IMG/VR virus record: IMGVR_UViG_3300019776_000571
Span: 1-56,901 of that record
DNA length: 56,901 bases
Source of the DNA: a virus
Reading direction: 5' to 3' (one strand)
In this document: in pieces, positions 8,752 to 51,350 of the stretch
Layout of the letters: every line of letters begins with the position of its first letter
Numbering within the stretch: the first letter of the stretch is position 1
The notes under the pieces: model-generated
What the model saw: only the letters and a program-made list of their open reading frames with translations
Databases searched by the model: none
What the model was told of the DNA's origin: nothing
Program-made: the position numbers and the translations under genes

Positions 8752-8759
8752 AATTTTTA

Positions 8760-8767
8760 TATTTATT
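8760..8767 (+). promoter_or_regulatory. Presumed late promoter variant TATTTATT
   Basis: TATTTATT, one base off the octamer found elsewhere, lies 30 bases before ATG 8797, in the only gap between uvdE and the kinase gene. Confidence 0.4.
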
Positions 8768-8796
8768 CGTAGTATTCTAAAACAATGGGTAGGACT

Positions 8797-9585: not shown

Positions 9586-9595
9586 TGAGAATTTG

Positions 9596-10642: not shown

Positions 10643-10674
10643 AATACTATTATTATATATACTGGAGTAGTTAT

Positions 10675-11331: not shown

Positions 11332-11334
11332 TTT

Positions 11335-11667: not shown

Positions 11668-11674
11668 GATTGAA

Positions 11675-12406: not shown

Positions 12407-12419
12407 CATATTTATTTAC

Positions 12420-22367: not shown

Positions 22368-22862
22368 GTGGCTATGTTCAGAAGAGAAAGAGTTACTGTA
22401 AATACTACAAATCCTGCAATAAACTTTGGAAAACCTATTGGTATTTTAGTTCCATTCAATGCAGAAACTGGTATATTTAAGCAAAGTTATACTAATAACC
22501 AACAGGTACTCTCTAATCTTAAAAACTTGCTATTAACCGCAAAAGGTGAACGGTATTTATTGCCGACTTTTGGGACAGACATACGAATGATTCTTTTTGA
22601 AAACATAGTTAGTGAGGATGATTTTACAAACAGAATAAATTCTGAAATAGAGGGTGCAATATCCGAATGGATGCCATATTTGGTTATAGTAGAATTACAA
22701 ACTATAATACCAGAACAAGACCCAAGATTAGATGATCCAGGTCATGCTGTTCAAGTAAAACTCGTTGTTAAAATTGGTGGTACAAACATTTATCTACCCA
22801 TACAAATACTTATATCTGAGACAGGAAACTTACAAATAAAAGAGGCGGTTTATAATGGCTGA
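22368..22862 (+). CDS. Baseplate wedge protein gp25-like
   Basis: A 164-residue protein of the GPW/gp25 family, the small wedge component at the sheath-baseplate junction. Marks: 'LSNLKNLLLTAKGERYLLPTFGTDIRMILFEN', where 'G-E-R-x-x-x-P-x-F-G' is the family signature, and a C-terminal beta region. The start is GTG 22368 with GGGAG 9-13 bases upstream. It overlaps the gp6-like gene by 8 bases, the usual order in T4-like phages. In such phages gp25 joins the gp6 dimer and starts sheath assembly. Confidence 0.85.
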   Translation: MAMFRRERVTVNTTNPAINFGKPIGILVPFNAETGIFKQSYTNNQQVLSNLKNLLLTAKGERYLLPTFGTDIRMILFENIVSEDDFTNRINSEIEGAISEWMPYLVIVELQTIIPEQDPRLDDPGHAVQVKLVVKIGGTNIYLPIQILISETGNLQIKEAVYNG

Positions 22863-24756
22863 TTTAGTTAAAAAAGACATACGTTACCTTTCAAGAGATT
22901 TTACCTCCTTGAAACAAAATCTTATTGATTTTACAAAAAACTATTTTCCAAATACGTATCAGGATTTTAACGAAACTTCTCCAGGAATGATGTTTTTGGA
23001 AATGGCTGCATATGTTGGTGATGTTCTTTCATATTACACCGACGTTACTTTACAAGAATCAATGATTTTACATGCAACAGAAAGAACTAATATATTTAAT
23101 GCTGCACAATCACTTGGTTATAAACCAAAAAACAGAATTGCTGCAAATGTTACTCTTGATGTTTTTCAAGTAGTTCCTGCTAAAACAGTTACTTCCCCAA
23201 GTGGTAGTTCTATTGTTCCAGATTATTCATATGCTTTTTCTATCGAACCAGGAATGGTAGTTGGACCATCAGCAACAAATGGTACAGAATTTAGAACAGT
23301 TGATTTCATAGACTTTAAATTTAGTTCAGATATTGATCCAACAGAAATAACTCCATTTGAAGTAAATGGAAGTGGTGAAGTTTTATTTTGGTTATTGAAA
23401 AAACAAGTAAAAGCGGTTTCTGGTAATGTAAACTATATTGATTATGAATTTAATGATCCAAAACCATATGATAGAGTTGTTTTGGAAAATCAAGACATGA
23501 TAGAAATTTTATATGGAATCGATTCAGATAATAACGTTTGGTATCATGTTCCGTATTTAGCAGTTGATACTGTTTTCGATCCAGTATTAAATGTTGCAAG
23601 AAACGATAGAGAATTATCTTTACATAGAACTGAAACACCATACTTACTAAAACTTAGAAAGGTTTCAAGGCGATTTACAACAAGAACAGTTGATCAGGGT
23701 ATATATGAAATTCAATTTGGTGCAGGTGTTTCCGATATAGATGATGAAGAACTAATTCCTAATCCAGATTTAATAGGGAATTCACTAACTGGTCTTGAAA
23801 GTTCTGTTTCTTTAGATATTGATCCTTCAAATTATTTATATACAAAGACATACGGACTTGCTCCAAACAATACAACTTTAAGAATATATTATACAACTGG
23901 TAAAGGTATTCAAGATAATGTTGCGAGTGATGTTTTAACAAGAATAATTTCACGTAATATATTATTAGATGAAACTGGTTTAGACCCAGTATTGTATAAT
24001 CAAGCAATTTCAAGTTTGGCTGTAACAAATCCTGTTCCAGCAGTTGGTGGTAAAACAGTTGAGGATATAAATGAAATTCGTCAAAACGCTTTAGCATATT
24101 TTGCTGCTCAAAATAGAGCGGTAACAAAAGAAGATTATATAATCAGAGCATATAGTTTACCATCAAAATATGGTTCAATAGCTAAAGCATATATTACAAA
24201 AGATACACAACTAACAGTTGAATCTATTTATAATAGTGAAAGAATCCAAAACAGTTTGGCTCTAAATTTTTATATTCTTGGATATGATGCAAATGGAAAA
24301 TTAACAACCATTAATGATGCAACAAAAGAGAACTTAAAAACATATTTGAATTATCACAGATTACTAACCGACGCTATTAATATTCGTGATGCGTATATTA
24401 TAAACATAGGTATTGAATTTGATATAATAACATTTCCAGATCAAAATAGTAATCAAGTAATTCTTCGTTGTATAAACAAACTAAAAGAATATTTTGATAT
24501 AAGGAAGTGGCAAATAAATCAACCAATAGTGTTAAGTAATTTATTTACTGAATTGGATAGAGTAGAGGGTGTACAAACTGTTGTTGATATTAGACTTACA
24601 AATTTATATGATCAAACATTGGGTTATTCACCACATGCCTATAATTTACAAGAAGCAACAAGAAATGGAATTGTATTTCCTTCTTTAGACCCTTCAATTT
24701 TTGAATTAAGATTTCCAGACAATGATATTCTCGGTAGAGTGAGGGCATTCGGATGA
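22855..24756 (+). CDS. Baseplate wedge protein gp6-like (baseplate J family)
   Basis: A 633-residue protein. The N-terminus 'KKDIRYLSRDFTSLKQNLIDFTKNYFPNTYQDF' followed by 'GMMFLEMAAYVGDVLSYYTD' is characteristic of the gp6/baseplate-J family. 'RAVTKEDYIIRAYSLPSKYGSIAKAYI' in the middle is the second hallmark. Length is close to T4 gp6 (660). It forms the ring that ties the wedges together. The ATG overlaps the end of gp25 by 8 bases, and the gene's own stop overlaps the next ATG. Confidence 0.85.
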   Translation: MADLVKKDIRYLSRDFTSLKQNLIDFTKNYFPNTYQDFNETSPGMMFLEMAAYVGDVLSYYTDVTLQESMILHATERTNIFNAAQSLGYKPKNRIAANVTLDVFQVVPAKTVTSPSGSSIVPDYSYAFSIEPGMVVGPSATNGTEFRTVDFIDFKFSSDIDPTEITPFEVNGSGEVLFWLLKKQVKAVSGNVNYIDYEFNDPKPYDRVVLENQDMIEILYGIDSDNNVWYHVPYLAVDTVFDPVLNVARNDRELSLHRTETPYLLKLRKVSRRFTTRTVDQGIYEIQFGAGVSDIDDEELIPNPDLIGNSLTGLESSVSLDIDPSNYLYTKTYGLAPNNTTLRIYYTTGKGIQDNVASDVLTRIISRNILLDETGLDPVLYNQAISSLAVTNPVPAVGGKTVEDINEIRQNALAYFAAQNRAVTKEDYIIRAYSLPSKYGSIAKAYITKDTQLTVESIYNSERIQNSLALNFYILGYDANGKLTTINDATKENLKTYLNYHRLLTDAINIRDAYIINIGIEFDIITFPDQNSNQVILRCINKLKEYFDIRKWQINQPIVLSNLFTELDRVEGVQTVVDIRLTNLYDQTLGYSPHAYNLQEATRNGIVFPSLDPSIFELRFPDNDILGRVRAFG

Positions 24757-25927: not shown

Positions 25928-27538
25928 ATGTTAAAGAGAGATACATTAACGGGAAGAATAATAAGTTATACATTAAACAGCGGAGTAGAAAACGAAGGTT
26001 CGTTGGATGTTGCTGTTATTGATGGTAGATTCCTACGTTCAGAATTTAACAGAGTAATAGATACAAAATTCAAAACATTACCAGCAGCTGTAAATGCAGA
26101 AAATGTTGTTTTAAATAAAATAAAGAAAGCACAGGTGGATATAATGAAACCAGATACATCTACGATACTTCCTTTATCGGTAGATACTACAAAGTTAACA
26201 CCTGCTCAATTAAAAGAATTAGCAAAACAAAATTTCTTGTCAAATATAGCAAATCTGATAGATGAAAACGGTACAAGTCCTGCAAGTTATGAGACAAAAT
26301 TAAATAATATGCAAGAACAATTAGCAACTAAAGATTCTATTATAAGTCAACAAATACAAACAATTTCAAAATTTGATGATGTTTTATCATCTGTTTCTGC
26401 TGAAAGAGCGTTAGCTATTGCAAAAACAGAAAGATTAAGGGCTGCTAATGTTGCCTTACAAAGACATGCAGAAGAGAAATTAACACGGATACAAAATGAA
26501 GTTGTTGCTCAACGAGAAGAATCTAAAAAATCTGCTGAAGCATTAAAAACTGCTTTGGTAGATAATATAAGTGCAACAAATACAAAACAAGATGTTGATA
26601 TTGAACAACTTAAATTACAAAATTTACAACTTCAACAGAATTTACAAGATACAAATAAAGCAATAATTGATTTAAAAACAACACAAACAACACAAACAAC
26701 ACCTACTACACCGACTACGCCAACAACACCTCCATCATCAGATAAGGAATTTTTCTCCTCTCCTACTTTATCAAGAGAAGGAAAATTATCAGAGTTGGGA
26801 ATTACTGATCCATCAAAGGCAGCATGGAGTAAAGACCCTTCAACCGGTGAAGATATTATTAGTATATCTCAAGATTTCAAAGTTCCTGGCGTTAAGATTA
26901 AAAATGGTAAGGTAATGTTGCCAATAAAATTTGGAGGAGTACAAGGTAAATTTGATTGTTCTAATTTAGGTTTAACTACATTAGAGGGTGCACCGACTGC
27001 ATGTGATTCATTTATTTGTTCAAACAATAAACTTAAAACATTAGAATTTAGTCCAATACGAGTTTATCAGGGAGTTATTGATGTTTCTAATAATCAATTA
27101 GAAAGTTTGGTTGGTGGTCCAAAAATGGGATTTAACGTACAAAAATCTGGTGACAATCCTAACACATATAGAAATACTTTTAGTAGTTATAATTGCTCAA
27201 ACAATAATCTTAAAACATTAGAAGGTTATCCAGATGGTCAAAGTCAAATAGTTAATGATGCAGGACAAATAACATATGTTAAAGAAGTTTCAATAGGACA
27301 ATTTGATTGTTCAAATAATTTATTATTATCAGACTTACGTTTTGTTACACCAACAAATGTAGATTCTCCAATACTAAAATTTACAGCAACTAAATGTAAT
27401 CTTTCAGATTTATCATTTGATACTACTTCTATTCAATTCAATTGTGAAACATTTGTAGGAGATCAACAAATAAATGGTAAAATTCTCAATATAGAAAAAG
27501 TAAAATCATTCACAAAAGCAAAAACGGTTATTGTATAA
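25928..27538 (+). CDS. Coiled-coil baseplate protein with LRR tail
   Basis: A 536-residue protein. The N-terminal 100 residues may bind the baseplate (MLKRDTLTGRIISYTLNSG). A coiled coil runs about 120-255 (QLATKDSIISQQIQTISKF, LQNLQLQQNLQDTN), followed by a Thr/Pro linker with repeated 'TTPTTP'. Residues 335-536 form leucine-rich repeats of the same type as in the 12763 and 15094 proteins, opening with 'GKFDCSNLGLTTLEGAP'. This pattern (stalk, flexible linker, ligand-binding tail) suggests a short fibre or a trimeric baseplate extension that binds something on the cell. Function is inferred. Confidence 0.65.
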   Translation: MLKRDTLTGRIISYTLNSGVENEGSLDVAVIDGRFLRSEFNRVIDTKFKTLPAAVNAENVVLNKIKKAQVDIMKPDTSTILPLSVDTTKLTPAQLKELAKQNFLSNIANLIDENGTSPASYETKLNNMQEQLATKDSIISQQIQTISKFDDVLSSVSAERALAIAKTERLRAANVALQRHAEEKLTRIQNEVVAQREESKKSAEALKTALVDNISATNTKQDVDIEQLKLQNLQLQQNLQDTNKAIIDLKTTQTTQTTPTTPTTPTTPPSSDKEFFSSPTLSREGKLSELGITDPSKAAWSKDPSTGEDIISISQDFKVPGVKIKNGKVMLPIKFGGVQGKFDCSNLGLTTLEGAPTACDSFICSNNKLKTLEFSPIRVYQGVIDVSNNQLESLVGGPKMGFNVQKSGDNPNTYRNTFSSYNCSNNNLKTLEGYPDGQSQIVNDAGQITYVKEVSIGQFDCSNNLLLSDLRFVTPTNVDSPILKFTATKCNLSDLSFDTTSIQFNCETFVGDQQINGKILNIEKVKSFTKAKTVIV

Positions 27539-27552
27539 CATAGGATATTTTA

Positions 27553-30500
27553 ATGTCAAATTTTAATTATACAAATATAGATTCTATACTTCAAGCAAAC
27601 GGTCCAATACGTGGTACTAGATTTAGATTAACTTCTATAAGAAGAAAATTAGTTGTACCCGTTATAAGTGAACCGACTGATCAATATTTTGGTTTAGAGT
27701 CGAGTCTTGAATTACATGCTTTTTTAGATAATACTAGATATGTGGATAACAGTTCTCTATATGATTTACCATTTAGTATTGAAAGTAGAGTTGAAAGTAT
27801 AACCGCAAATAATGTAACAGAACAAGTAACGAGGAAATATGTTGTAATAGATGTTTACGATCATGTTCAAAGACTTTTAGATTTGCCACCTGAAAAATAT
27901 AAAATTGTTTATAATTTTATTAGAAATTTGATTGGTGGTGCAAGTAATGATACTGATAGATTATTTATTTCTGATATTTCTCAAGATAGAAAAGAAATAA
28001 AATTATCATTAAAATATCCAGATAGTCAAACTGGAAAACAGGCTTTAGAAAACTTTGTTTTAAGTTATTTGGCATCAACTAAATACTTACCACCTATTAT
28101 TTTGAATTTCGGTGAAAATCTGATAGTAGACGTTGTTAATATTGCTTCCGATGGTGATAATACTTACTTTTATGCAAAATTATATGATCCATTACCAAAC
28201 GATGTTGATTTATATTATGAATGTTGGCTAGGAAGCCAGACGTTAAAACCATGGATAGATGTGGTTGATGTTAGATTCGCAGATGAAATTGAAAAAATCC
28301 CTTATATTAAAGGACCTAACTTTGAAGTTGACTATGATTATTGGGTAAACACAGAAACAACATATAAATCTTGGACTGATTTACTTTCAACTAATGTACA
28401 AACATCGCAAGAAATTCTTAACCGATATGTAAATAATACTGGCTCTTCGGTACAACTGAATGTTGATTTTAGAAATTTTGGAAATTTCATATTCTATTCC
28501 TCAGCAGAAGATAGAGTTGCTAATTTCTTTTATAAAACAGAATTAGTTCAACAATATAATTCACAACTTTCAATATTAAACACATATACTGGATCTTTAT
28601 CTTCTAATATTGTAAAAGTAAAAGGACTTAGAGATAAAGTTATAAGTGGATTTGACGATTTTGAAAAGTGGTTGTATTATGAAACAACTGGTAGTAATTT
28701 TTATACTAGTCAATCCGTTGCTTTAGTTACACCATTTCCAAAATATGAAGTTAACATTACTTCAAGTGACTACCATATAGCAACTAAAGAAGGTAAGTAT
28801 AAATTATATCCAGTTACTTCTTCCAATGTTTTGGATTGGTATGATAATATTTTGGACTTGGCTTACGATTATGACTTAAAAAATTATAACTCGCTTAATA
28901 AAGCAATACCAGAATATATCAGAGATGATGGACAAAGTGAACAGTTTACAACTTTTGTAAATATGATTGGACAGCATTTTGATATTTTATATTTATACAC
29001 CGATCACATACTAAAGAAAAACACAAGACAAGAAAATCCAAAAGACGGACTTTCTCAAGATTTGATTTATGAAACAACACGTAATTTAGGATGGACATTA
29101 TCGCATGGAACACAAGCAAAAGACCTTTGGGAATACGCTTTAGGTTTAAGTGGTAGTGGTGAACCAGTTTGGACAGGTAAAACTACAACAAATAAATACT
29201 TAACTAAATCTGAAGAAGAAAGAACAAAAGAAGTTTGGCGTAGAATATTAAATACTCTTCCATATATTTACAAAACAAAGGGAACTGCAAGAAGTGTTAA
29301 AGCATTACTTGCTGCTTATGGTATTCCACAATCAATTCTTGCAATTCGTGAATACGGTGGACCAGATAATGCCGATTTTGGAAAAACTCCAAAGACGGAA
29401 TGGGAAAAATATACAAACTATCTTTCTTTTTTAGGAAGTAGGCAGCAACCAACAACAAATCAATATGTTCGAGTTCCTTGGGAAAAAGTAAATAATACTA
29501 ATAGTCAATGGCAATATCCAGATACTTTGACGTTCCGATGGAAAATGCACAATTCAAAGTATTATGAATACAAAAACGATTCGGTACAAACACTTTTACA
29601 AAAACAATCTGGTAGTAGATTGGATTGGTATGTAACAATAGAGCATGATGGTACAGACTACGATAAAGGAAGTTTGACTTTCCACATGAAAGGTGAGGAC
29701 ATTACCACAACTGGTGGTTGGTCAAAAATATCAGCAGGGTTCAATCATAGTACCGCTGTTAAAACAGACGGAACACTTTGGGGTTGGGGATTGAATACCA
29801 ATGGTCAACTTGGTGATAATTCCACTACAACTAAATCAAGTCCAGTTCAAATTGGAACTCTTTCAAATTGGTCTTATGTATCAGCAGGCGATAACTACAC
29901 ATTAGCAGTTAAAACTGACGGAACACTTTGGGGTTGGGGACAGAACACTTATGGTGAACTTGGTGATAATTCTACTTCAACTAAATCAAGTCCAGTTCAA
30001 ATTGGTACTTTATCTAATTGGTCAAAGGTAGAAGGTGGAAATAACCATGTATTAGCTCTTAAAACTGACGGTACACTTTGGAGTTGGGGTTTTAGTGGTA
30101 ATGGTGAATTGGGTCAAGGTAGTACTGTATCACGTTCTTCTCCAGTACAAATTGGAACTTTATCAACTTGGTCATCTATATCAGCTGGTTCAAACCATTC
30201 ATTTGCTATAAAAAATGATAATACTTTATGGGGTTGGGGTAGAGGTGGTTTTGGTGAATTAGGAGATAATACAACTGTTAATAAATCTTCTCCAGTACAA
30301 ATTGGTTCAAGTTATTCAGTAGTTTCTGCTGGTGGATATTATACATTAGCAGTTAAAACAGACGGAACATTATGGGCTTGGGGTTATAATAATAAATACC
30401 AACTCGGTGATGGTACTACTAATACATATTCATCGCCAATTCAAATAGGTACGGGATTCGCAACAGTATCCGCTGGACCAGATTCTGGTGGGTTGAATTA

Positions 30501-32625
30501 CGCTACATCATTAGCGGTTAAATCCAATGGAACTCTATGGGGTTGGGGTAACAATAGTGATGGACAAGTTGGTACAGACACAGGAGTTGGTTTTCAAGTA
30601 ACTTCACCTATTCAAATTGGTGGTAGTACAGATTGGAATACTGTAAGTGATGGATTAACACATACCGTTGCCTTAAAAACAAATGGTAGTTTGTGGGGTT
30701 GGGGAAATAACGCAAATGGACAAGTTGGTGATAATACAACAGTAACACGTTCATCGCCAGTTCAAATTGGAACTTTAAGTGCAACAGCAATTAGTTCATA
30801 TAAATCTGCTTCAATTACAGACCAATATTTGTATGATGATGTGCCACTAAATATTATGCTACAAAGAAGAGTTTCAACTGATTTAACTTCTTCAAACCAA
30901 ATTTATGACTTTATTCTAAAAACAGGAAAATACGGTAAGATTGTAATTGAACAATCCGCAAGTATTGTTATAAGTGGAAGTGTGAGTGGTAGTTATAATA
31001 AAGCATGGGCTTCTGATGGACAATTATACATAGGTTCTGGTTCAAATCCACAGACTGATAATATACTTTCTGGCTCTATTTTTGAATTAAGATATTGGTC
31101 AAATATATTAAAAACTTCTTCTTTTGATAATCATGTATTAGCACCAAGAGCATACAATGCAAATACTATAACTGGTTCATTCTATGACTTACAAGGTCAA
31201 TGGGAGTTTTGGAAAAAATTTGATGCTGCGGCAACTACAAGTATTATAAGTAGTCATCCAGACCAAACAAAGAATACTTTTTATAGTTCTTCTAAATTTG
31301 CTTATCTGAATGGATTCAATACTTCTTCATTTAAGTCGGTAGTTGAAACATATAACATGGAAGTTGCAACTATTGCAAACAATACACCATTTACAGAAAA
31401 AGTAAGAATTGATTCTGCTTCATTACAAGATTCATTACAATTTGATGAGTCTGTTACTGTAACACAGTTTGATAAATATTCAATAGATTTGAATAAGTTA
31501 ATGGTTGCATTTTCACCACAACATATAATAAATGAAGATATTTATGAATCGTTGGGATATGTTGAACTTGATAATTATTTGGGTGATTATTCTACTGTTA
31601 ACATGGATGAATACCCACAGTTAAAGTTATTATCAGCGGAGTATTGGAAAAAATATCAAAATAAAAATGATTTTACTGCTTATATAGATTTAATAGCTAA
31701 ATTTGATTTTAGTGTATTTGATCAAATACGTCAAGTTTTACCACTTCGTGTAAATGAAATATTAGGTTTGGTTGTAGAGCCAAATGTTTTAGAAAGATCT
31801 AAAGTTAAAGTTTTAAGAGAATTTGGTGCAGAAAAATCTGAAATAATTGATACAAATGATATTTCAAAATTACCGAAATCACGAGCAACATTATCTAAAG
31901 AAAAAGCTACTGTAATGATTGGATTCGATGAAAATTATGGTAGTGAATTATTAGAAGTTGGTGGTGAATTTGAAATAGAAACTACGTTTAAAAATGAATT
32001 ACAAGAAATATCTGGTGAGCGTGATTATAACTTTAATACTAATTTGGTAGTAAATAAAACTACTGGCAGTTTTGTCATTCCTCCAAAAGTTGTTACTGCT
32101 GAAAAAAATAAATTAAAAACTAATATCGGTAACAATAAAGCATTTTCTGCAACTATAAAAGAATTTAATTCAAGTGTATCTGCAAAACCAACACTAACAA
32201 CTACTGAATTATGGTACACACCAGAAGTAGAAGCAATTTCTACTACGTTCTTAGCATCCGATGCGGTATCTAGTTTTACATCTCTAAGTCAAAACGCTTT
32301 GGAAAAGGAAACAGCTCTATTTTTACAAATAGATAACTATAACTCAGATGGATATTATTCAACATTTGAACCAGTATACAGTACAGCACAAGATTATATA
32401 AATGACAATGCTAGTTCATACAACACAATATCGGTAGAATATGTTAGTCCAGACTCATTAAGAACAGCTCAACAGAACTATATGTTTGCTGGTTGTAAAT
32501 TAGAAGGTGAAAATGGTGAAGGTATTAACGATGTAACATACCCAGCTGTAACACCATTCGGTGGCTCAATAGTTGAAGTTACAACTGATAATGTTTTAGA
32601 GGATGTTTTGTTTATAATAGAGTAA
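27553..32625 (+). CDS. Giant baseplate/tail protein with RCC1 propeller inserted in a lectin-like domain
   Basis: A 1690-residue protein. The first 640 residues are wedge-type; 'RILNTLPYIYKTKGTARSV' followed by 'LAAYGIPQSILAIREYGG' near 580-610 is a stretch I associate with T4-like baseplate proteins. A LamG/concanavalin-like domain starts near 655, is interrupted at 721-1076 by seven RCC1 repeats, and resumes at 1077-1190 ('GQLYIGSGSNPQTDNILSGS'). The remainder, about 1190-1690, is an unrecognised structural region. RCC1 propellers mediate protein-protein binding, so a receptor- or ligand-binding role at the baseplate edge is inferred. The gene belongs to the unit started at 21879. Confidence 0.75.
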   Translation: MSNFNYTNIDSILQANGPIRGTRFRLTSIRRKLVVPVISEPTDQYFGLESSLELHAFLDNTRYVDNSSLYDLPFSIESRVESITANNVTEQVTRKYVVIDVYDHVQRLLDLPPEKYKIVYNFIRNLIGGASNDTDRLFISDISQDRKEIKLSLKYPDSQTGKQALENFVLSYLASTKYLPPIILNFGENLIVDVVNIASDGDNTYFYAKLYDPLPNDVDLYYECWLGSQTLKPWIDVVDVRFADEIEKIPYIKGPNFEVDYDYWVNTETTYKSWTDLLSTNVQTSQEILNRYVNNTGSSVQLNVDFRNFGNFIFYSSAEDRVANFFYKTELVQQYNSQLSILNTYTGSLSSNIVKVKGLRDKVISGFDDFEKWLYYETTGSNFYTSQSVALVTPFPKYEVNITSSDYHIATKEGKYKLYPVTSSNVLDWYDNILDLAYDYDLKNYNSLNKAIPEYIRDDGQSEQFTTFVNMIGQHFDILYLYTDHILKKNTRQENPKDGLSQDLIYETTRNLGWTLSHGTQAKDLWEYALGLSGSGEPVWTGKTTTNKYLTKSEEERTKEVWRRILNTLPYIYKTKGTARSVKALLAAYGIPQSILAIREYGGPDNADFGKTPKTEWEKYTNYLSFLGSRQQPTTNQYVRVPWEKVNNTNSQWQYPDTLTFRWKMHNSKYYEYKNDSVQTLLQKQSGSRLDWYVTIEHDGTDYDKGSLTFHMKGEDITTTGGWSKISAGFNHSTAVKTDGTLWGWGLNTNGQLGDNSTTTKSSPVQIGTLSNWSYVSAGDNYTLAVKTDGTLWGWGQNTYGELGDNSTSTKSSPVQIGTLSNWSKVEGGNNHVLALKTDGTLWSWGFSGNGELGQGSTVSRSSPVQIGTLSTWSSISAGSNHSFAIKNDNTLWGWGRGGFGELGDNTTVNKSSPVQIGSSYSVVSAGGYYTLAVKTDGTLWAWGYNNKYQLGDGTTNTYSSPIQIGTGFATVSAGPDSGGLNYATSLAVKSNGTLWGWGNNSDGQVGTDTGVGFQVTSPIQIGGSTDWNTVSDGLTHTVALKTNGSLWGWGNNANGQVGDNTTVTRSSPVQIGTLSATAISSYKSASITDQYLYDDVPLNIMLQRRVSTDLTSSNQIYDFILKTGKYGKIVIEQSASIVISGSVSGSYNKAWASDGQLYIGSGSNPQTDNILSGSIFELRYWSNILKTSSFDNHVLAPRAYNANTITGSFYDLQGQWEFWKKFDAAATTSIISSHPDQTKNTFYSSSKFAYLNGFNTSSFKSVVETYNMEVATIANNTPFTEKVRIDSASLQDSLQFDESVTVTQFDKYSIDLNKLMVAFSPQHIINEDIYESLGYVELDNYLGDYSTVNMDEYPQLKLLSAEYWKKYQNKNDFTAYIDLIAKFDFSVFDQIRQVLPLRVNEILGLVVEPNVLERSKVKVLREFGAEKSEIIDTNDISKLPKSRATLSKEKATVMIGFDENYGSELLEVGGEFEIETTFKNELQEISGERDYNFNTNLVVNKTTGSFVIPPKVVTAEKNKLKTNIGNNKAFSATIKEFNSSVSAKPTLTTTELWYTPEVEAISTTFLASDAVSSFTSLSQNALEKETALFLQIDNYNSDGYYSTFEPVYSTAQDYINDNASSYNTISVEYVSPDSLRTAQQNYMFAGCKLEGENGEGINDVTYPAVTPFGGSIVEVTTDNVLEDVLFIIE
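29712..30780 (+). repeat. Seven RCC1 repeats in the 27553 gene
   Basis: Seven units of about 50 residues with the pattern 'SAG-x-x-H-T-x-A-V-K-T-D-G-T-L-W-G-W-G'. At DNA level the units share stretches such as AAACAGACGGAACA and GGTTGGGG. Seven blades are enough to close one beta-propeller. The sixth unit is longer by several residues. Confidence 0.85.
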
Positions 32626-40841: not shown

Positions 40842-42557
40842 GTGTCATTTCAATTTGGAAATAGTATAAGTTTTGCTTGGAAAAAATTATCGGCAGGTGA
40901 TTACGTAGTCCGTCAGTTCCAAGCTAATAAAACATGGGAATTTAATACAATTCCTACTGATATAAATTATTATGAAAATAATGGTTTTAATGTTTATCGT
41001 GTATTATATCCAGAAAATCATAGATATTTTGGAAATGTTGTAAACATATCTTCATCTTTATATGAAAGACCATTTAATATACAAACGTTAGACCCAAAAC
41101 TTTTGTGGTACTACGCTGACCATAGTTATTATACCGTTTATTCTGATTTTAGAACGGGTGATTTTTCACACGATGGAAACCATAAAAACTATTTATGGGA
41201 ATCAAGTTCTATGTTTGTAGCACCGATGCGAACATTTGGCGAGGGAATAAAAAAAGGTTCATTGTCTTTAACTAATTACAATACAAATCCATCTTATAGT
41301 TATACGTTAATCGATGATGAAAACGGTAACTTAATAGATACATCGTTTGATGCAACTACTTTTGTTGATGATAGTTACAATCTTTTGTATGTTGGATTCA
41401 ACGAAAAATATAGAGAGTATAATTACAAAAATAATAAATCATATTATGTATCTGATACTTCAGAGCATAACACGATTATATCAATATCAAATCCTAAAAA
41501 GATAAATTATTATAGTGGAATACCAACAACTGATACAAGTGAATCAACTGGCGTAAGTGCTGCATTCAATGGTGCATATCTGTCTGTTAGTGATTATGAA
41601 CGATTCAATTTTAACAGAGCAAACAACTTTGCGTTTAGTTTTTGGATTAATATTCCAAGTTCACAATCATTAGAAAACTACGATCATAATTATCTTTTCA
41701 ATAAAAACAAAATAACAATGGTTCAGAAGGGCGATGATCACATTATAACTAGCAGTTATACTGAAAAGTTTCCTTTTGATATTTCAATTAGAAATAGAAC
41801 TTCGAGTTATCCGCATTCTATTGTTTTCAAACAACAATCAAATGTTGAAATTATGCAAGTTACTTCAAGTTTGTTAGCAACTGGTTCTTGGCATCATGTT
41901 GTTTGTCAAAAAACTGGTAGTAACTATCAAATTTACATAGATGGTACATTAAATGCAAGTTATAATAAGATTATGACTAAACCTATTGGTAATGATCACT
42001 ATTTTTATATTGCAGGTGATGGTACTTCTGATAAAACATTTTCTGGTTCTCTTGATGAAATTCGTATTTACTCAAAAGGATTAACTCAAACAGAAATAGA
42101 TGGTTTATACAATAATAGTTTAGTGAATGGGTATGCTTATCAAACTTCAAGAGTTGGTAATGTTTTTTACAAAAATGGGATAGCTATTGTTTCAGACCCA
42201 AGACCAAAATATAAAAATGCATTACTTGGTGAAAGTGGAAGTTTTGATTATAGTGGTTCTGCTTATGGTTTCGATGGTAAGTTTAAGAGTACAATTACTT
42301 TATATGAACATGAAATTATTTGTAAAATAAAAAAGAATGAATTTAATTTTACTCAAAACCCTTCTTTATTTACAGATATAAATCTTGGACCACAATTAGT
42401 AGATACATATGCATCGCATAAAGATTTTAATCCGTATATAACAACAATCGGATTATATAATGATAATAGAGATTTAGTAGCAATTGCAAAATTGGCTAAC
42501 CCTTTGATAAAACGTGATGATGTTGACATGAATATTATTATACGATTTGACATGTAA
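40842..42557 (+). CDS. Virion protein, paralogous module copy 5 with LamG domain inserted
   Basis: A 571-residue protein. The module is present at both ends: N-terminal residues about 50-205, C-terminal 'NEFNFTQNPSLF' and 'PYITTIGLYNDNRDLVAIAKL'. A LamG/concanavalin-type domain (about 238-428) lies between them: 'VSAAFNGAYLSVSD', 'NNFAFSFWINIPSS', 'GSWHHVVCQKTGSNYQIYID', 'FSGSLDEIRIYSKGLT'. LamG jelly rolls bind carbohydrate, so it probably carries a receptor-binding role. The start is GTG 40842, immediately after the previous stop; AAGG lies just upstream. The stop overlaps the next ATG. Confidence 0.7.
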   Translation: MSFQFGNSISFAWKKLSAGDYVVRQFQANKTWEFNTIPTDINYYENNGFNVYRVLYPENHRYFGNVVNISSSLYERPFNIQTLDPKLLWYYADHSYYTVYSDFRTGDFSHDGNHKNYLWESSSMFVAPMRTFGEGIKKGSLSLTNYNTNPSYSYTLIDDENGNLIDTSFDATTFVDDSYNLLYVGFNEKYREYNYKNNKSYYVSDTSEHNTIISISNPKKINYYSGIPTTDTSESTGVSAAFNGAYLSVSDYERFNFNRANNFAFSFWINIPSSQSLENYDHNYLFNKNKITMVQKGDDHIITSSYTEKFPFDISIRNRTSSYPHSIVFKQQSNVEIMQVTSSLLATGSWHHVVCQKTGSNYQIYIDGTLNASYNKIMTKPIGNDHYFYIAGDGTSDKTFSGSLDEIRIYSKGLTQTEIDGLYNNSLVNGYAYQTSRVGNVFYKNGIAIVSDPRPKYKNALLGESGSFDYSGSAYGFDGKFKSTITLYEHEIICKIKKNEFNFTQNPSLFTDINLGPQLVDTYASHKDFNPYITTIGLYNDNRDLVAIAKLANPLIKRDDVDMNIIIRFDM

Positions 42558-43021: not shown

Positions 43022-43978
43022 ATGATAAATTATGATTTACTTAATTTGTTAGAAAAAGTTCTTGGTAAGGGACGAAAAACTTCTGGCAATAACTACTCTT
43101 TTTTCTCTCCGTTCATTTCCCATTACAAACCAAAATTAGAAATAGATTTAAGTGCATCTAACGATGGACAAAATGTATGGCATTGTTGGGTGAGTAACGC
43201 TAAGGGTAGAAATATATCCTCACTATTCAAAAAATTAAAAGTCGATAGGTCTTACTATGCTGATTTGGATAAAATCATAAAGACCAGAAAACTTTATGTT
43301 TCTGATCAAAAAGAAACAAAAGAAATTCAATTAAGTCTTCCATCGGAAACTATTCGTTTGTATGAATACGGTAAAATAAAAGACATACAAACTAAAATGC
43401 AGTTAAAACAAGCAATAGATTATTTGAAAAAGCGAGGAATCAGTAGAACCGATATGATTAGGTATGATATTGGCTATTGCCCAAATGGTGCTTACTCAGG
43501 TAGAATAATTGTTCCATCGTACGATGATAATTTCAATTTGAATTTTTTTGTTTCTCGTTCTATTTTTGATGAGGATACATTAAAATATAAAAATCCAAAA
43601 TGGAGTAAAGATGTTATTGGTTTTGATTCATTTATTAATTGGAATGAACCTATAACTTTAGTTGAAGGTGTGTTTGATGCAATTAGTGCTAGGTATAACA
43701 CTATACCACTTTTTGGCAAACTAATGTCAAACTTATTAAAAGAAAAAATATTACTACGTAAACCACCGAAAGTAATTGTTGCTTTAGATAACGATGCAAG
43801 AAAAGATGCATTGAATATTTCAAGTTATTTGGTTAGAAATGGAATAAATGTTTCCATTGTAAATTTAGAACAAAAAGATGTAAACGAGGTTGGATTCAAA
43901 GAATTTACTTTAATCAAAAGTAAAAGTAAGAATACCGATACATATGATATTATTAAACAAAGGATTTTGAATGCTTAA
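43022..43978 (+). CDS. DNA primase, DnaG/gp61-type
   Basis: A 318-residue protein. The TOPRIM core is visible: 'ITLVEGVFDAISA' with the conserved Glu near 213, and 'KVIVALDNDARKDAL' with the D-x-D near 254-256. 'AIDYLKKRGISRTDMIRYDIGYCPNG' is the typical linker between zinc domain and TOPRIM. The N-terminal zinc-ribbon place (about 22-65, 'FFSPFISHYKP...VWHCWVSNAKGRN') holds only one Cys, so the metal site appears lost. It makes RNA primers for lagging-strand synthesis and should act with a replicative helicase not in the window. Overlaps the next gene by 8 bases. Confidence 0.85.
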   Translation: MINYDLLNLLEKVLGKGRKTSGNNYSFFSPFISHYKPKLEIDLSASNDGQNVWHCWVSNAKGRNISSLFKKLKVDRSYYADLDKIIKTRKLYVSDQKETKEIQLSLPSETIRLYEYGKIKDIQTKMQLKQAIDYLKKRGISRTDMIRYDIGYCPNGAYSGRIIVPSYDDNFNLNFFVSRSIFDEDTLKYKNPKWSKDVIGFDSFINWNEPITLVEGVFDAISARYNTIPLFGKLMSNLLKEKILLRKPPKVIVALDNDARKDALNISSYLVRNGINVSIVNLEQKDVNEVGFKEFTLIKSKSKNTDTYDIIKQRILNA

Positions 43979-46900
43979 CGTACACAGAATTATACACATT
44001 GCAGACATACATATTAGAAATTATAAACGCCATGAAGAATACCAAATAGTATTTAATAGATTATATGATTATTGCCGTGAAACTGTTTCTAAACATAAAA
44101 ACACTTTAATTTATGTTGCAGGTGATATTGTTCATGCAAAGACAGATATGAGTCCAGAGTTAGTAGAAATGACAAGACAGTTTTTATTAAACTTATCTGA
44201 AATAGCAACTACTATTTTTATAGCAGGAAACCACGATTGTAACTTGAATAATAAAGACCGTTTAGATTCTTTAACTCCAATTTTCAATACATTTAACAGC
44301 TACTCTAACTTACATTATTTGAAAGATACGGGTGTTTATCCGTTCGGCAATGTAAACTTCGTTGTTAATTCAGTATTCGATGATACTAAAAATTTTATTA
44401 AAGCATCTGACGTTGAAGATGACGGTAGAAAGAAAATAGTTCTTTATCATGGTGCTATTAATGCAGCAGAAACTGATACAGGTATGAAGTTGCATAATAC
44501 CGATGTTACTCTTGATTTATTTGAAGGGTTTGACTATGGATTTTTTGGAGATATTCACAGATTTCAATACTTAGATAAAGATAAAAGATTTGCGTATCCA
44601 GGTTCGCTTATACAACAAAACTTTGGGGAAGACTTAAAGCACGGTGTAATTGAATGGAATATACCGAAGGGAACATCGAAGTTTGTAGAAATTAAAAATG
44701 ATTTTGCTTACCACACAATTGAGGTTGAAAATGGAAAAATTAAAAACTTACCAGATGAATTTTCAAAAAATAATTACATACGTTTACGTTCGATTAATAC
44801 AGATAATTCAGACATTCATAAAGTCATTACCGAGTTAAAATCATTAGCAAATGTTCTTGATGTTAAAGTACAACGAGTTGGTAATTCATCAGAAGCAGGA
44901 AATACTTCTCAAAATAAATTAGGTGATATTAGAGATATTTCTTATCAGAACACGTTAATTTCTAATTACATTAAAAATAATAAGTTACCAGCTGATACTG
45001 CATTGTTAGAACGTATTTATGAAATAAACAGAAACGTAAACAAGCAAGTTGATGATAGTGATGTTGTTAGGAATTTAATTTGGACTCCAAACTATTTTAA
45101 GTTTGATAATATGTTTTCATACGGTGAAGGTAATATTGTAAACTTTGATTCTATGAATGGGATTTATGGTTTATTTGCACCGAATGCAAGTGGAAAATCT
45201 TCCGTTTTGGATGCTCTTATGTATTGTATTTTTGATAAATGTTCAAGAACATATAGAGCAATTCAGGTAATGAATAATAAAAAAGATAATTTCAGATGTA
45301 AACTTAGTTTTAATATTGGTGAACGGAATTACTTCATTGAAAGGGTTGCAACTAAGGACAAGAAGGGTGCTGTTAAGGTTGTAGTTAACTTTTGGTACTT
45401 AGATGGAGAGAACAAAGTTTCACTCAATGGCGAGGACAGAGACGATACAAATCGTATAATTAGAAAGTATTTGGGGACATACGATGACTTTATTTTAACA
45501 GCAATGTCTGTTCAGGGTAACAACACTAATTTTGTTGATAAAGCGCAACGTGAACGTAAAGATTTACTTGCTCAGTTTTTAGATTTAGAATTGTTTGAAG
45601 AATTACATACAATAGCAAATGATGATTCTAAGGGTGTGAGTACACTCATTAAAGAATTTAGTAAACAAGATTATTCAACTAAGATATTAAATGCGGAAGC
45701 AAAACGAGATGAAGCAAACACAATTTTATTTAATTTGAATTCAGAAAAATCTGAAATTGAAGATAAAATAGAAGGACTGAACACTACAATTAGAGACAAT
45801 GAAAATAAATTAATAAAAGTAGATTCTAATTTATCCCCTAATTCTTTACAAACGCTGTTAGAAAAAGAAATTTCAATTGATAGAAAAATAGATGAAACCA
45901 TTCGCGGTATGAAATCATTAGAATATGAATTGAAAGGAGCGAATGAAAGTCTTGAACGATACACAAGAATTCTTACTGAATTTGACAAAGAAGATTTATT
46001 AGAACGTAGAAAGATGGTTGACGAAATTAGATTAAAAATTTCTAAAAGTGAATCTGATTTGAGAAACATAAAACTTCAGATTCAACATTGTGAAGATAAA
46101 GTAGATAATTTGAAGAGCCATCAGTATGACCCAAAATGTAAATTCTGTGTTGGTAATGTGTTTGTTCAAGATGCAAAGAAAGCAGAATCAAATTTAGTTG
46201 GATTAAATAACGATAAAGATGCTTTGACTAATGAAATTGAATTACTCGAAAAAGAATTCAAGAAAAACTCCAATGTTTATGCGGAACTGGACAGATTACA
46301 GAAGTCAGAAAATGATCAACATTTTCATCAAAAAACGGTATTTAATTTAGAAAAAAATATTTATAGTAATAAAGAAACATTGAAAGGATTTGAAGAAGAT
46401 TTGGTAAATGTTCAAAATAGAATATTAAAATATAAAGAAAACGAAGAATCTATTAAAACAAATTCTTTACTGATGGAAATAATAGAAGATTCTAAGAATT
46501 CTAAATCAATGTTTACTAAAGAGTTAAAGCAAATTGAAGGAAAGATTATAGATTATAGTGGTGATATTAAAGTACAAGAAAGAATTATAAACGATTGTAA
46601 TGAATCGATTCAGAAATTAAAAGAACTTGAAACAGAATATCTCGCTTATGATTATTATTTGAAATGTGTAAATAGAAATGGTATTCCGTACGCACTCATA
46701 GGTGACGCTTTACCGAAGATACAAGCGGAAACAAATAATATTTTATCTCAAATCGTTGATTTTCAAGTGCTTTTTGAGACAGATGGTAAGAGTATTAATA
46801 CTTATATAGTGTATGATGATGAGAACTTCTGGCCACTTGAATTAACTAGTGGAATGGAAAAATTCATTTCATCGATAGCTATTAGAGCAGCACTTATAAA

Positions 46901-47117
46901 TGTCTGTTCTTTACCAAGACCAAACTTTATAGCGATTGATGAAGGTTTGGGAACATTGGATTCTGGAGTTTTAACGAGCTTCTCTATGTTTTTAGAGTAT
47001 CTCAAAACTCAGTTTGATTTTGTTATCTTAATATCTCATATCGATGTTGTTAGGGATATGGTTGATAGTCAGATAGAAATTAAGAAAGAGAATGGATTTT
47101 CAAAAATAGAAGGATAA
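43971..47117 (+). CDS. Fused gp47-gp46 (Mre11-Rad50/SbcDC-like) recombination nuclease
   Basis: A 1048-residue protein. Residues 1-340 are an Mre11/SbcD-type phosphoesterase: 'HIADIHIRN' (D12, H14), 'VAGDIVHAK' near 50, 'IAGNHDC' near 86, 'FGDIHRFQ' near 193 and 'YPGSLIQQNFGE'. Residues 350-1048 are a Rad50/SbcC-type ATPase: Walker A 'FAPNASGKSS' near 402, a long coiled coil with a zinc-hook 'CKFC' near 723, the signature 'LTSGMEKFISS' near 958, and Walker B 'FIAIDEGLGTLDS' near 988. T4 encodes these as separate gp47 (339) and gp46 (560). The fused enzyme resects DNA ends for recombination-dependent replication. It is transcribed with the primase. Confidence 0.92.
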   Translation: MLNVHRIIHIADIHIRNYKRHEEYQIVFNRLYDYCRETVSKHKNTLIYVAGDIVHAKTDMSPELVEMTRQFLLNLSEIATTIFIAGNHDCNLNNKDRLDSLTPIFNTFNSYSNLHYLKDTGVYPFGNVNFVVNSVFDDTKNFIKASDVEDDGRKKIVLYHGAINAAETDTGMKLHNTDVTLDLFEGFDYGFFGDIHRFQYLDKDKRFAYPGSLIQQNFGEDLKHGVIEWNIPKGTSKFVEIKNDFAYHTIEVENGKIKNLPDEFSKNNYIRLRSINTDNSDIHKVITELKSLANVLDVKVQRVGNSSEAGNTSQNKLGDIRDISYQNTLISNYIKNNKLPADTALLERIYEINRNVNKQVDDSDVVRNLIWTPNYFKFDNMFSYGEGNIVNFDSMNGIYGLFAPNASGKSSVLDALMYCIFDKCSRTYRAIQVMNNKKDNFRCKLSFNIGERNYFIERVATKDKKGAVKVVVNFWYLDGENKVSLNGEDRDDTNRIIRKYLGTYDDFILTAMSVQGNNTNFVDKAQRERKDLLAQFLDLELFEELHTIANDDSKGVSTLIKEFSKQDYSTKILNAEAKRDEANTILFNLNSEKSEIEDKIEGLNTTIRDNENKLIKVDSNLSPNSLQTLLEKEISIDRKIDETIRGMKSLEYELKGANESLERYTRILTEFDKEDLLERRKMVDEIRLKISKSESDLRNIKLQIQHCEDKVDNLKSHQYDPKCKFCVGNVFVQDAKKAESNLVGLNNDKDALTNEIELLEKEFKKNSNVYAELDRLQKSENDQHFHQKTVFNLEKNIYSNKETLKGFEEDLVNVQNRILKYKENEESIKTNSLLMEIIEDSKNSKSMFTKELKQIEGKIIDYSGDIKVQERIINDCNESIQKLKELETEYLAYDYYLKCVNRNGIPYALIGDALPKIQAETNNILSQIVDFQVLFETDGKSINTYIVYDDENFWPLELTSGMEKFISSIAIRAALINVCSLPRPNFIAIDEGLGTLDSGVLTSFSMFLEYLKTQFDFVILISHIDVVRDMVDSQIEIKKENGFSKIEG

Positions 47118-47135: not shown

Positions 47136-50100
47136 ATGATTGAAAAGAAAAAATTTAAGCGTGATTATATAAATGTAGCAACGAAATATTCTGAGATAAA
47201 TAACAGTTCTCCTAATATTTTGAATGTTACTTTCATGCCAGAATCATTTTCGGCAGGTAAAAATCTTTTTAGATTTAAACCAAACCCAATGTTCATTTCA
47301 CATGAGTTTCCAATTAACATAGAAGTTTTGGACTCAAACGGTAACCCTATCTATCATGAGGTTTTACGAAAAAAAGAAAAAGATAAATCGATTAACGTTG
47401 CTGTATATGTATACGATTCAGTACCTATCGGTGCATGTAGTATAACCATACTTTGTACTGTTTATAGGGATTTGAATGGTATTTTATTACCAAGAACCGA
47501 TGTTAAAAAATACAATTACAAATATACCCACTCACTAAATGCTGATAAAAGTAAATTAAATGATAGTGAAATTGTTTATAAGCAAGAGCCAATTGTACAG
47601 GTATCTGAAAAGAAGATTTCAATAGTTGAAGAAAAATTTGATGCTCAAAAACAAAGTGGTTCTATTGGGTTTGCAACTTATTCATTTAAGGATAGCTTAC
47701 CAGTACTTACAAATTTCAGTAATAATTTCAAAAAAGAATTTGAAGGTGGAAAGATATTCTTTCCCACACTTTCTTCTACTAGATTTCCAAGTGCACAAAC
47801 TTCATCGTTTGAATACTCATCGAGTATTGCATACGTAAATAGTCCTAATCAACTAACATTAAAAGATCCAGTTTACTTTCGTGGTACAGATGGTACGTAT
47901 AGACCTGTTTCATTCGCTGAAAATCAGGAATATAATATTATATATAATAATTCTTCTGATTCAAGAACCGTAACTCAGAATGTAAAATCATACGCACAAT
48001 TGGATATAAAAAATCTTGAACCAGAAGTTGGACAAATTTCTCGTATAAAAGTTTTTACAAGAAGTGCAAATAAACCAAATCAAGCATATCAGTTAGTATA
48101 TGACGGAAATGTTAATCAAAAAAATTGGATGGTTGATACTAGTTCAAATTTAGTTGAAAATCCAATCGGTATATTTTCAAAAAATGTTGATATAGAAATT
48201 GCAGGAAATGCAACACCATCTTCAATAAACGCTTACAGTTATTGGAATCCTGTTCAGATTAATGGTGCACCACTTGCTTTAATTAGTTCAGCATCATATT
48301 TTTATACACCATCTGGTTCTAATTCATCTTCATACTCAACATTTGATTATACGGAAGAATCTATATCAATAGTTCCTACCGCAATAATGTCTGGTTCTCA
48401 AGAAATTATCATAGAACAGACTGGATCAGCAGCAACTAAATTTTATAAAGACACGGTTTATAGTATCGTGTTTGACTATTATAACACTCCCAATAAATTA
48501 GATACACGTGAGCAGAAAATAGCAGTTTATATGAGTGGTAGTGCATTCAGTAATAATACCGAATACGGTAGGTATTTGGGTAAAGTTCCAATTTATACTG
48601 GTGCGGAATCTCGTAAAAAAGATTTTAAATTGAGAATACCAGTTGATAGAGACGGTGATGGTATTGTTAGATTTATGATCAGAGATGGTGCTAAAATTTC
48701 TAATATTCGTGTAGTTGATGATTCTAATTATGGATTTACTCCAAATAGAACACGTATTTATGTTCCAATAGATCAAGCACATAGAAATGAATATTTAGAT
48801 TTCAAGATTCAATATTTTAACGATACATCTAGAGAATCACAGGTATCTTCTTCAATAGAAGGTGTTTACTTTACAGGTGGGAATCAATACATTTATGGTA
48901 ATGATAATATAATAACTGGTTCTACTTTCCTTTCATCATATACTGCAAGTGGTATTCAATTATTTAGTAATATATCTGGTTCTAAATCTGGCTCTGCAAT
49001 ACAAACATATGGATATAACGGCATAGAATATGTACTTTCTAATTCACCAACTTCTTATAATTACGGTTGGAGTTTGACACAAGGAAATCCTTATGCTAGT
49101 TCTAGCTATTCACAAGCAACAGTTCAAATGATAAATCAAAGTGGTTCTTCTTTTGAATTCCGTTCTAATCCAGACACTTTTAATTTTAATGCAGTTGGTA
49201 GTAATTCTACTGTTTTAATTGGTAATAGTGGTTCTGTAAGTAGTTCTTACTTAAAATGGGATGGTACTAATTTAGCTATCTATGTTAATGGTTCTTTACT
49301 ATCGCCAACAAGTGGTTCAGGTGGTTTTTCTACAACCGCTTCTTACGCAGCAACTGCTTCTTATCTCCTAAACGGTGGCGCAAATATAAAGGCGGATATA
49401 GTTGATGGTGCTTCATTCACAGGTTCACCACGTACTTCTACTGTTACATTTCCTTCTCCATATGAGGATAATTTTTATTCTGTGAGTATATCAGCGGAAT
49501 CCGCACGTGCATGGACAATTGAATCAAAAACATTATCTGGTTTCACTATAAACTCAAACGCTTCCGATGTAGTTAGTGGTGATGTGTATTGGATGACTAT
49601 GCCAAAATCTTCATCGTTTATAGCAACAAGAGATATTGTGACTTCTGCTTCTTATGCAGCAACTGCATCGAGTGTAATAGGTTTTTCAAGTAGTTCATTT
49701 GCTAATATATCGAGTTCATTTGTTAACATATCAAGTTCTTACAGTCCTCTATCAAGTTCATTTATATTAGTATCAAGCTCATTTAGTTTAGTATCAAGTT
49801 CTTATAGTCCACTATCAAGCTCATTTGTTAATATATCAAGTTCTTATAGTCCTCTATCAAGTTCATTTAGTTTAGTATCAAGTTCTTATAGTCCACTATC
49901 AAGTTCATTTACTACTCTATCAAGTTCTTACAGTCCTCTATCAAGTTCTTACAGTCCTCTATCAAGTTCATTTAGTTTAGTATCGAGTTCATATAGTCCA
50001 CTATCAAGTTCATTTGTTAATATATCGAGTTCATTTAGTTTAGTATCAAGTTCTTATAGTCCTCTATCAAGTTCATTTACTACTCTATCAAGTTCTTATA

Positions 50101-51350
50101 GTCCTCTATCAAGTTCATTTACTACTCTATCAAGTTCATTTACTACTCTATCAAGTTCTTATAGTCCTCTATCAAGTTCATTTAGTTTGGTATCAAGTTC
50201 TTACAGTCCACTATCAAGTTCATTTAGTTTGGTATCAAGTTCTTATAGTCCACTATCGAGTTCATTTAGTTTAGTATCTAGTTCATTTAGTTTAATATCG
50301 AGTTCATTTAGAACTGGTTCATTTACTGGTTCATTACAAGGAAGTTCTTCATATTCGGCAACTTCTTCATATGTAAATACTCTTACTCAAAATGTTAATA
50401 TAGTTCCACCATCAACGGCAACAAATACTGCAATATATGTATCTGGCTCAAACACAGTCGGTGGTTCTACTTACATTGATTTCTTGCGAGTTTCTAATTC
50501 CACAAGTCCAGTTGTTAATCCAAATAAAACATTTAGATTAGATAATACAGGAACATTTCAAATAATAGATAGTGCATACCTAAATAATATATGGTCACTT
50601 ACCGATGCAGGAATTGTTCAAATACCAAGTGCTGCCGGTAAAACAACACAATTAAAGGCAACTGGCAGTGTAATAAGTTTTAATAACGGTGGTGGACAGA
50701 TATTCGATGACGGAAATTTTCACATACACAGTTTAAATCCAGACGGAACACTTTGGATGAATGCATCTGGTTCTGGTAAATTGATAATAAATGCGCAAAC
50801 TGGTGCAACGGGTGGTGTTTTAATTGGAACAACAACACAAGCTGGTTATGTAACTATAAACGGTAGTGTGAATGCAACTTATTCATACGCATATTTATCA
50901 TCAGCCGTCCCTTCACCATATACGGGAACATCTTCTGGAACAAATCCATATTCATTAACTGCAAATTCTCGTATTCAAGCATCTGAATTTAATGCAACTT
51001 CAGATGAAAGACTTAAAAATATAATCGGTAAAATTAAATTAGCAGATGCAATTAGGTTCATTAAAGGGGTCGATTCGATTCAATTTACATGGAAAGATGA
51101 AATAGATAAGGGAATAAAAACAGGCTATTCGGCACAACAACTTGTAAAAACTGGATTTGAACATTTGGTGGGTGGTGTTCCAAAACCTGGCTTAGAAGAA
51201 TCGGTTGATTCTGATGGATTTATTTCACCGAAAGATACTCAACTTGTAGTTAACAACGATCAAATAACACCGTATCATAGTTTATTAATAAAACATCTTT
51301 TGGAAAGAATAGAAGAATTAGAAAAAAGGTTATTAGTTTCAAACAATTGA
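47136..51350 (+). CDS. Long tail fibre with heptad repeats and S74 autochaperone
   Basis: A 1404-residue protein. Residues 1-700 form the head-proximal part (beta-rich, 'GKNLFRFKPNPMFISHEFPI'). Residues 765-828 are a beta-sandwich ('PYEDNFYSVSISAESARAW'). Residues 852-1061 are 30 tandem seven-residue units. The C-terminus is an S74 peptidase/intramolecular chaperone domain: 'TSDERLKNIIGKIKLADAIRF' with the conserved Ser1289, and 'KTGYSAQQL'. In this family the chaperone folds a trimer and cleaves itself off. The fibre should bind the host surface. The ATG at 47136 is 18 bases after the nuclease stop. Confidence 0.85.
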   Translation: MIEKKKFKRDYINVATKYSEINNSSPNILNVTFMPESFSAGKNLFRFKPNPMFISHEFPINIEVLDSNGNPIYHEVLRKKEKDKSINVAVYVYDSVPIGACSITILCTVYRDLNGILLPRTDVKKYNYKYTHSLNADKSKLNDSEIVYKQEPIVQVSEKKISIVEEKFDAQKQSGSIGFATYSFKDSLPVLTNFSNNFKKEFEGGKIFFPTLSSTRFPSAQTSSFEYSSSIAYVNSPNQLTLKDPVYFRGTDGTYRPVSFAENQEYNIIYNNSSDSRTVTQNVKSYAQLDIKNLEPEVGQISRIKVFTRSANKPNQAYQLVYDGNVNQKNWMVDTSSNLVENPIGIFSKNVDIEIAGNATPSSINAYSYWNPVQINGAPLALISSASYFYTPSGSNSSSYSTFDYTEESISIVPTAIMSGSQEIIIEQTGSAATKFYKDTVYSIVFDYYNTPNKLDTREQKIAVYMSGSAFSNNTEYGRYLGKVPIYTGAESRKKDFKLRIPVDRDGDGIVRFMIRDGAKISNIRVVDDSNYGFTPNRTRIYVPIDQAHRNEYLDFKIQYFNDTSRESQVSSSIEGVYFTGGNQYIYGNDNIITGSTFLSSYTASGIQLFSNISGSKSGSAIQTYGYNGIEYVLSNSPTSYNYGWSLTQGNPYASSSYSQATVQMINQSGSSFEFRSNPDTFNFNAVGSNSTVLIGNSGSVSSSYLKWDGTNLAIYVNGSLLSPTSGSGGFSTTASYAATASYLLNGGANIKADIVDGASFTGSPRTSTVTFPSPYEDNFYSVSISAESARAWTIESKTLSGFTINSNASDVVSGDVYWMTMPKSSSFIATRDIVTSASYAATASSVIGFSSSSFANISSSFVNISSSYSPLSSSFILVSSSFSLVSSSYSPLSSSFVNISSSYSPLSSSFSLVSSSYSPLSSSFTTLSSSYSPLSSSYSPLSSSFSLVSSSYSPLSSSFVNISSSFSLVSSSYSPLSSSFTTLSSSYSPLSSSFTTLSSSFTTLSSSYSPLSSSFSLVSSSYSPLSSSFSLVSSSYSPLSSSFSLVSSSFSLISSSFRTGSFTGSLQGSSSYSATSSYVNTLTQNVNIVPPSTATNTAIYVSGSNTVGGSTYIDFLRVSNSTSPVVNPNKTFRLDNTGTFQIIDSAYLNNIWSLTDAGIVQIPSAAGKTTQLKATGSVISFNNGGGQIFDDGNFHIHSLNPDGTLWMNASGSGKLIINAQTGATGGVLIGTTTQAGYVTINGSVNATYSYAYLSSAVPSPYTGTSSGTNPYSLTANSRIQASEFNATSDERLKNIIGKIKLADAIRFIKGVDSIQFTWKDEIDKGIKTGYSAQQLVKTGFEHLVGGVPKPGLEESVDSDGFISPKDTQLVVNNDQITPYHSLLIKHLLERIEELEKRLLVSNN
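49689..50318 (+). repeat. 30 tandem 21-bp units (seven-residue repeat) in the long fibre
   Basis: Thirty consecutive units of exactly 21 bases encode SSSYSPL, SSSFSLV, SSSFTTL, SSSFVNI and close variants in a mixed order. DNA identity between units is high (for example TCAAGTTCTTATAGTCC), so copy number can change by slippage or recombination. Confidence 0.9.

Follow-up and report, generated by a model that had tools for sequence, protein, structure and literature searches.

A gene on the plus strand of the window (27553..32625) was predicted to encode a 1690-aa protein of the baseplate wedge region, in which a complete seven-bladed RCC1 propeller replaced a hairpin turn of a LamG-type domain. 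The window is the whole stretch of DNA that was analyzed, namely positions 1 to 56,901 of IMG/VR virus record IMGVR_UViG_3300019776_000571, taken as one strand from 5' to 3'; the gene had 78 related loci. The favored reading, to which a probability of about 0.55 was assigned, is that the propeller is an optional plug-in at a surface hairpin of the LamG-type domain, that it is exchanged between phages, and that it most likely serves as an accessory host-surface adhesin.

The propeller occupied residues ~723-1075 (29719..30777, +), which is close to the sequence-only reading of a complete seven-bladed unit at residues 721-1076. Pfam matched seven stretches to PF00415 (RCC1; whole-protein E 9.5e-65, 215 bits against a curated cut-off of 21.7), with all seven single repeats above the cut-off, and PF25390 (RCC1-like domain) scored 252 bits (cut-off 150). 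The repeats were also visible in the DNA, as seven copies spaced 144-171 nt apart. The AlphaFold2 model of the window protein contained 28 strands (7 x 4) flanked by lectin strands on both sides, although at its pTM of 0.56 the way in which propeller and lectin are placed toward each other is only tentative. Foldseek placed UVR8 at the top of the matches to the predicted propeller (TMt 0.87, rmsd 2.5 Å), followed by HERC2, HERC1, RPGR, and RCC1; such likeness in fold would by itself say nothing about Ran exchange activity. The UVR8 photoreceptor is marked by GWRHT-type tryptophan motifs. No GW.HT string was found in the seven blades, in which the G..H positions read GFNH, GDNY, GNNH, GSNH, GGYY, (insert), and GLTH.

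The host domain was split into a first part at residues 620-712 (29410..29688, +) and a second part at residues 1082-1260 (30796..31332, +). The lectin sequence ran to M712 and resumed at S1081/Y1082, and the linker KGEDITTTGG (residues 713-722; 29689..29718, +) stood in place of the GDGT-like hairpin turn of the relatives. The empty form of the site was modeled with AlphaFold2 on the propeller-less orthologue L015 (on a contig shared with L104; pLDDT 87, pTM 0.87), in which strands 105-113 and 119-128 were connected by a hairpin turn exactly where the window insert sits. This model matched PAPP-A, pentraxin, laminin G, and neurexin (Z 12-16 over ~160-200 residues), and its Foldseek list also included the CBA120 tailspike TSP2. 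Because the propeller-less model matches laminin G, pentraxin, and neurexin domains, the flanks of the propeller are read as a single LamG-type fold, as had been proposed from the sequence. Pfam gave no above-cut-off match in this region, with Laminin_G_3 touched in only 1/39 relatives (E 0.0044), and the LamG (concanavalin-A-like) assignment is a prediction made purely from the fold. A second tail-region LamG protein was encoded at 40842-42557 (Laminin_G_3 E 7.1e-18).

The insertion was single, in frame, and took the place of the hairpin turn. About 60 distinct relatives could be aligned across the site (63 when propeller carriers were counted), and most of them showed the strand end KGSLTF(Y/H)x, a GDGT-like turn, and xYxSASI in this order; no other insert of at least 12 residues occurred at the propeller site in these spanning relatives. 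The alignment, the empty-site orthologue model, and the window model, with lectin strands before and after the propeller, all agreed with a clean insertion at one place. The two ends of the propeller lie near each other, so that its addition is possible without breaking the lectin fold. In distant relatives (L073 6977-12985; L076-L080), big N-terminal insertions were found near residues 150-195, a site unlike that of the propeller.

The placement of this protein at the baseplate is putative and draws on the gene neighbors and on a weak Pfam match. Upstream lay genes for gp25-like (22368..22862, +; phrog_261 / phrog_43) and gp6-like (22855..24756, +; phrog_219 E 1.5e-24) wedge subunits and a hub/lysozyme-like gene, in agreement with the baseplate context that the sequence-only reading had assumed. 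A stretch directly before the LamG-type domain (29215..29352, +) resembled Tail_P2_I, but under the curated cut-off (Pfam E 0.001; 14.2 bits against 20.6), and the same family was matched in 7/17 relatives with a weak best E of 0.036; because the match is weak, a gpI/gp7-like role is no more than a lead. The N-terminal 620 residues matched no solved structure. The gene directly upstream (25928-27538) had a C-terminal LRR-like extension with CSNN.L.TL.G-like repeats in the group of the window and L011-L015, which was absent from the shorter homologues in L018, L023, L034, and L008 and whose DNA conservation was also poor.

Most relatives had an empty site. The lectin alignment retrieved 133 confirmed relatives from IMG/VR, and the best 79 of these loci were scored; the propeller was present in five and absent from 74, which spanned 882-891 bp instead of 1980. 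Close relatives thus do not all carry it, and lectin-fold relatives without it are common. A search for the junction pattern recovered the same five contigs, giving six carriers with the window, of which the window, L011, L012, and L013 were complete, whereas L014 and L190/L197 were cut by the contig end. The empty-site form HDGASA was found in L015, inside the carrier clade, and in L106/L107-type contigs. These six junction residues in L015 were considered as a deletion scar, which was dropped, since the GDGT-like turns of relatives are of similar length and HDGASA also occurs in the L106/L107-type contigs.

The relationships among propellers disagreed with the N-terminal tree, in which, with supports of 1.0, the window paired with L014 and the sister clade comprised L011, L012, L013, and L015; the propeller-less L015 was nested within this clade. 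Between the window and L012, the propeller had a dS of 0.10 and the C-terminal lectin part one of 0.14, whereas the values were higher elsewhere, at about 1.07 for residues 1-610, 0.68 for the N-terminal lectin part, and 0.76 for residues 1191-1450; amino acid identity was 97% in the propeller and 96% in the C-terminal lectin part, compared with about 76% outside. Informative sites placed the 5' switch of the window in 29667-29782 (gene nt 2115-2230) and the 3' switch in 31102-31152 (gene nt 3550-3600), so that the segment common to the window and the L012 lineage has the outer limits 29667..31152 (+). On the other hand, the sister lineages window and L014 had a dS of 0.18 in residues 1-610 and 0.67 in the propeller, showing that L014 holds a different allele. 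Among L013, L014, and L190, propeller dS values of 0.08-0.21 contrasted with flank values of about 1.0-1.1 (0.08 and about 1.1 for L013/L190). This mosaic pattern indicates that the propeller and part of the lectin domain moved between lineages.

The clearest junction of this kind was found in L190, which was 98.6% identical in DNA through gene nt 2154 to L105, an empty-site contig from a separate sample. Beyond nt 2154, L190 followed the L013 propeller; identity in 100-nt steps was 84-100%, and 98-100% once blade 2 was reached, whereas the L013 lineage and L190 were only about 55-83% identical outside the propeller. At the join, the L105 and L013 types agreed exactly over no more than the 12-bp tract AAAGGAAGTTTA, which encodes KGSL and is homologous to the conserved KGSL tract of the window (AAAGGAAGTTTG; 29665..29676, +). 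The switch in L190 is read as probable short-homology recombination between phages, a 12-bp de Bruijn join appearing unlikely.

The sequence-only reading had called the insertion recent because of the high similarity among its repeats, and this argument did not hold. In 20/21 comparisons, a blade resembled the blade at its own position in another phage more than it resembled other blades, and the seven-blade set is therefore older than the divergence of the alleles; blades 1 and 2 were locally homogenized, being 80% identical in the window and L012 and 58-59% in L011 and L013. What does appear recent is the movement of the cassette, as judged from the dS mosaicism and the L105/L190 pair. A foreign origin by composition was rejected, because GC3 in the propeller (0.156) matched that across most of the gene (0.14-0.15), and for the same reason the higher overall GC of the propeller (0.386) was ascribed to its amino acid content.

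RCC1 propellers also occurred elsewhere in this phage group. Stand-alone RCC1 proteins ranged from 726 to 2851 aa; the L011 phage encoded one of 2851 aa (L173 7056-15608), almost all of it RCC1 repeats with over 40 matches, and those of the L106 and L018 phages measured 755 and 726 aa, with N-termini that were alike. Furthermore, a Peptidase_S74 tail-fiber-like protein of the window (47136..51350, +) had a homologue in G015, the phage of L133, with an independently inserted RCC1 propeller (L176 minus strand 8016-14000; 1995 aa, propeller near residues 618-976). This propeller fell between parts aligned to window S74 residues 602 and 638, a site at which the window and other homologues had none and continued uninterrupted. 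Elsewhere in the window, one gene (43971-47117) encoded a protein with both a calcineurin-like phosphoesterase (6-197) and an AAA/SMC-like ATPase (379-601), resembling a fused SbcD-SbcC / Mre11-Rad50. Outside the family, phage contigs L074, L090, L093, L096, and L100 contained RCC1 proteins in tandem or repeats inside proteins of up to 4385 aa. In the RCC1 tree, the inserted propellers grouped together (1.0), then with further RCC1 proteins from this group of phages (0.82-0.88), within a wider phage RCC1 clade (0.97), and the bacterial sequences L160-L166 fell outside. The best bacterial and the best phage matches were both near 51-52% identity, so that identity alone is not decisive for the origin. 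The proposed comparison with Bacteroidota RCC1 proteins did not favor direct capture from that phylum, since the tree groups the inserted propellers with the phage proteins.

The propeller is probably an exchangeable binding module, because it is mostly absent in relatives and is passed on by recombination. The dN/dS between complete propellers was about 0.15-0.29, which argues that it is kept functional, and no sign of positive selection was seen in it. As for ligand and function, we infer that the propeller would face away from the baseplate and bind a protein or glycan of the host surface as an accessory adhesin, and that exchange of alleles would alter the host variants that the phage can hold. 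Weighing against a binding module, most relatives evidently manage without the propeller. A wider proposal, put forward only tentatively, is that RCC1 propellers are a general exchangeable specificity cassette, in which stand-alone tail-region RCC1 proteins would act as a store, copies would enter hairpins of baseplate and fiber proteins, and alleles would circulate by short-homology recombination and alter host attachment.

A possible, though clearly less probable, alternative to the adhesin is that the propeller docks a virion protein (a fiber, a whisker, or a stand-alone RCC1 protein) and so fastens this partner to the baseplate. Eukaryotic RCC1-like domains often bind proteins (UVR8-RUP2, RPGR-PDE6D, and HERC2-peptide in the PDB), and the L011 phage possesses the inserted propeller together with its 2851-aa RCC1 protein; however, the propeller crosses lineages whose dS is near saturation elsewhere without an obvious co-moving partner, and the L018 and L106 phages have a stand-alone RCC1 protein without an inserted propeller. 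Variable sites did not cluster on one face of the propeller (0.34 vs. 0.33; strands 0.32), and since they mark no single face, sequence alone cannot decide between a host and a virion partner. It is improbable that the propeller is a near-neutral passenger, tolerated because of its close ends and spread by hitch-hiking recombination only. The patchy distribution and the persistence of the HDGASA form in L015 and L106 would suit such a passenger, but the low dN/dS, the intact frame in all alleles, the repeated transfers, and the second insertion in the G015 S74 protein would not. Mis-joining of metagenome contigs at the repetitive propeller is a very improbable source of the mosaic alleles: although the L014 and L190 contigs both stop within it, the tract common to L190/L105 and the donor type at the join is shorter than the k-mers commonly used in assembly, the 3' switch of the window lies in non-repetitive lectin sequence, and several contigs have differing switches and share propellers that are closely related rather than copies.

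The adhesin reading agrees with known phage propellers, which in phi11 gp45, PRD1 P2, and phiKZ gp131C are likewise carried on peripheral, putatively host-facing tail or baseplate proteins (PMC4901313, PMC6115969). These are (putative) receptor-binding proteins whose receptor role is partly unproven (PMC6115969, PMC4901313); they were not described as RCC1, in contrast to the optional seven-bladed RCC1 insert in the LamG hairpin of the window. RCC1-like proteins are known from the large coliphages GAP32 (Gp1), phAPEC6 (eleven copies), and W70, in some cases detected in the virion (PMC7247149, PMC5259590, PMC11370258): W70 has them among its virion proteins (PMC11370258), and GAP_001 was found in the virion by mass spectrometry (PMC5259590). 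The authors of the phAPEC6 work suggested a role in DNA ordering. These coliphage proteins are separate, whereas in the window a conserved baseplate-region protein contains the propeller, which is exchanged. Among Bacteroidota RCC1 proteins, that of Flavobacterium sp. GT3R68 (L136, 51% identity) has seven similar units as in the window, but it stands on its own, its N-terminus is leader-like, and its C-terminal tail resembles, by eye, a T9SS sorting domain, and the phage propellers stand apart from it in the tree. Recent domain shuffling and ongoing mosaicism of host-interaction domains have been reported for receptor-binding and baseplate proteins (PMC10684548); here, by comparison, what varies is whether a single hairpin holds a whole propeller. 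RCC1 proteins of phages, tail propellers, and mosaicism in receptor-binding proteins are thus each known singly, and no description of an RCC1 propeller within a baseplate lectin/LamG domain circulating as an allele was found in the open-access papers searched.

Whole-domain exchange at the tips of tail fibers is well known. Here a baseplate-region gene acquires an entire propeller inside another folded domain, and the empty form, the filled form, and a near-identical pair of contigs from before and after the exchange are all present, so that direct tests can be made of how a phage binding domain is inserted and transferred and of what it does. PHROGs classes phage RCC1 proteins under 'DNA, RNA and nucleotide metabolism', and these results suggest that they may fit better among extracellular binding modules.
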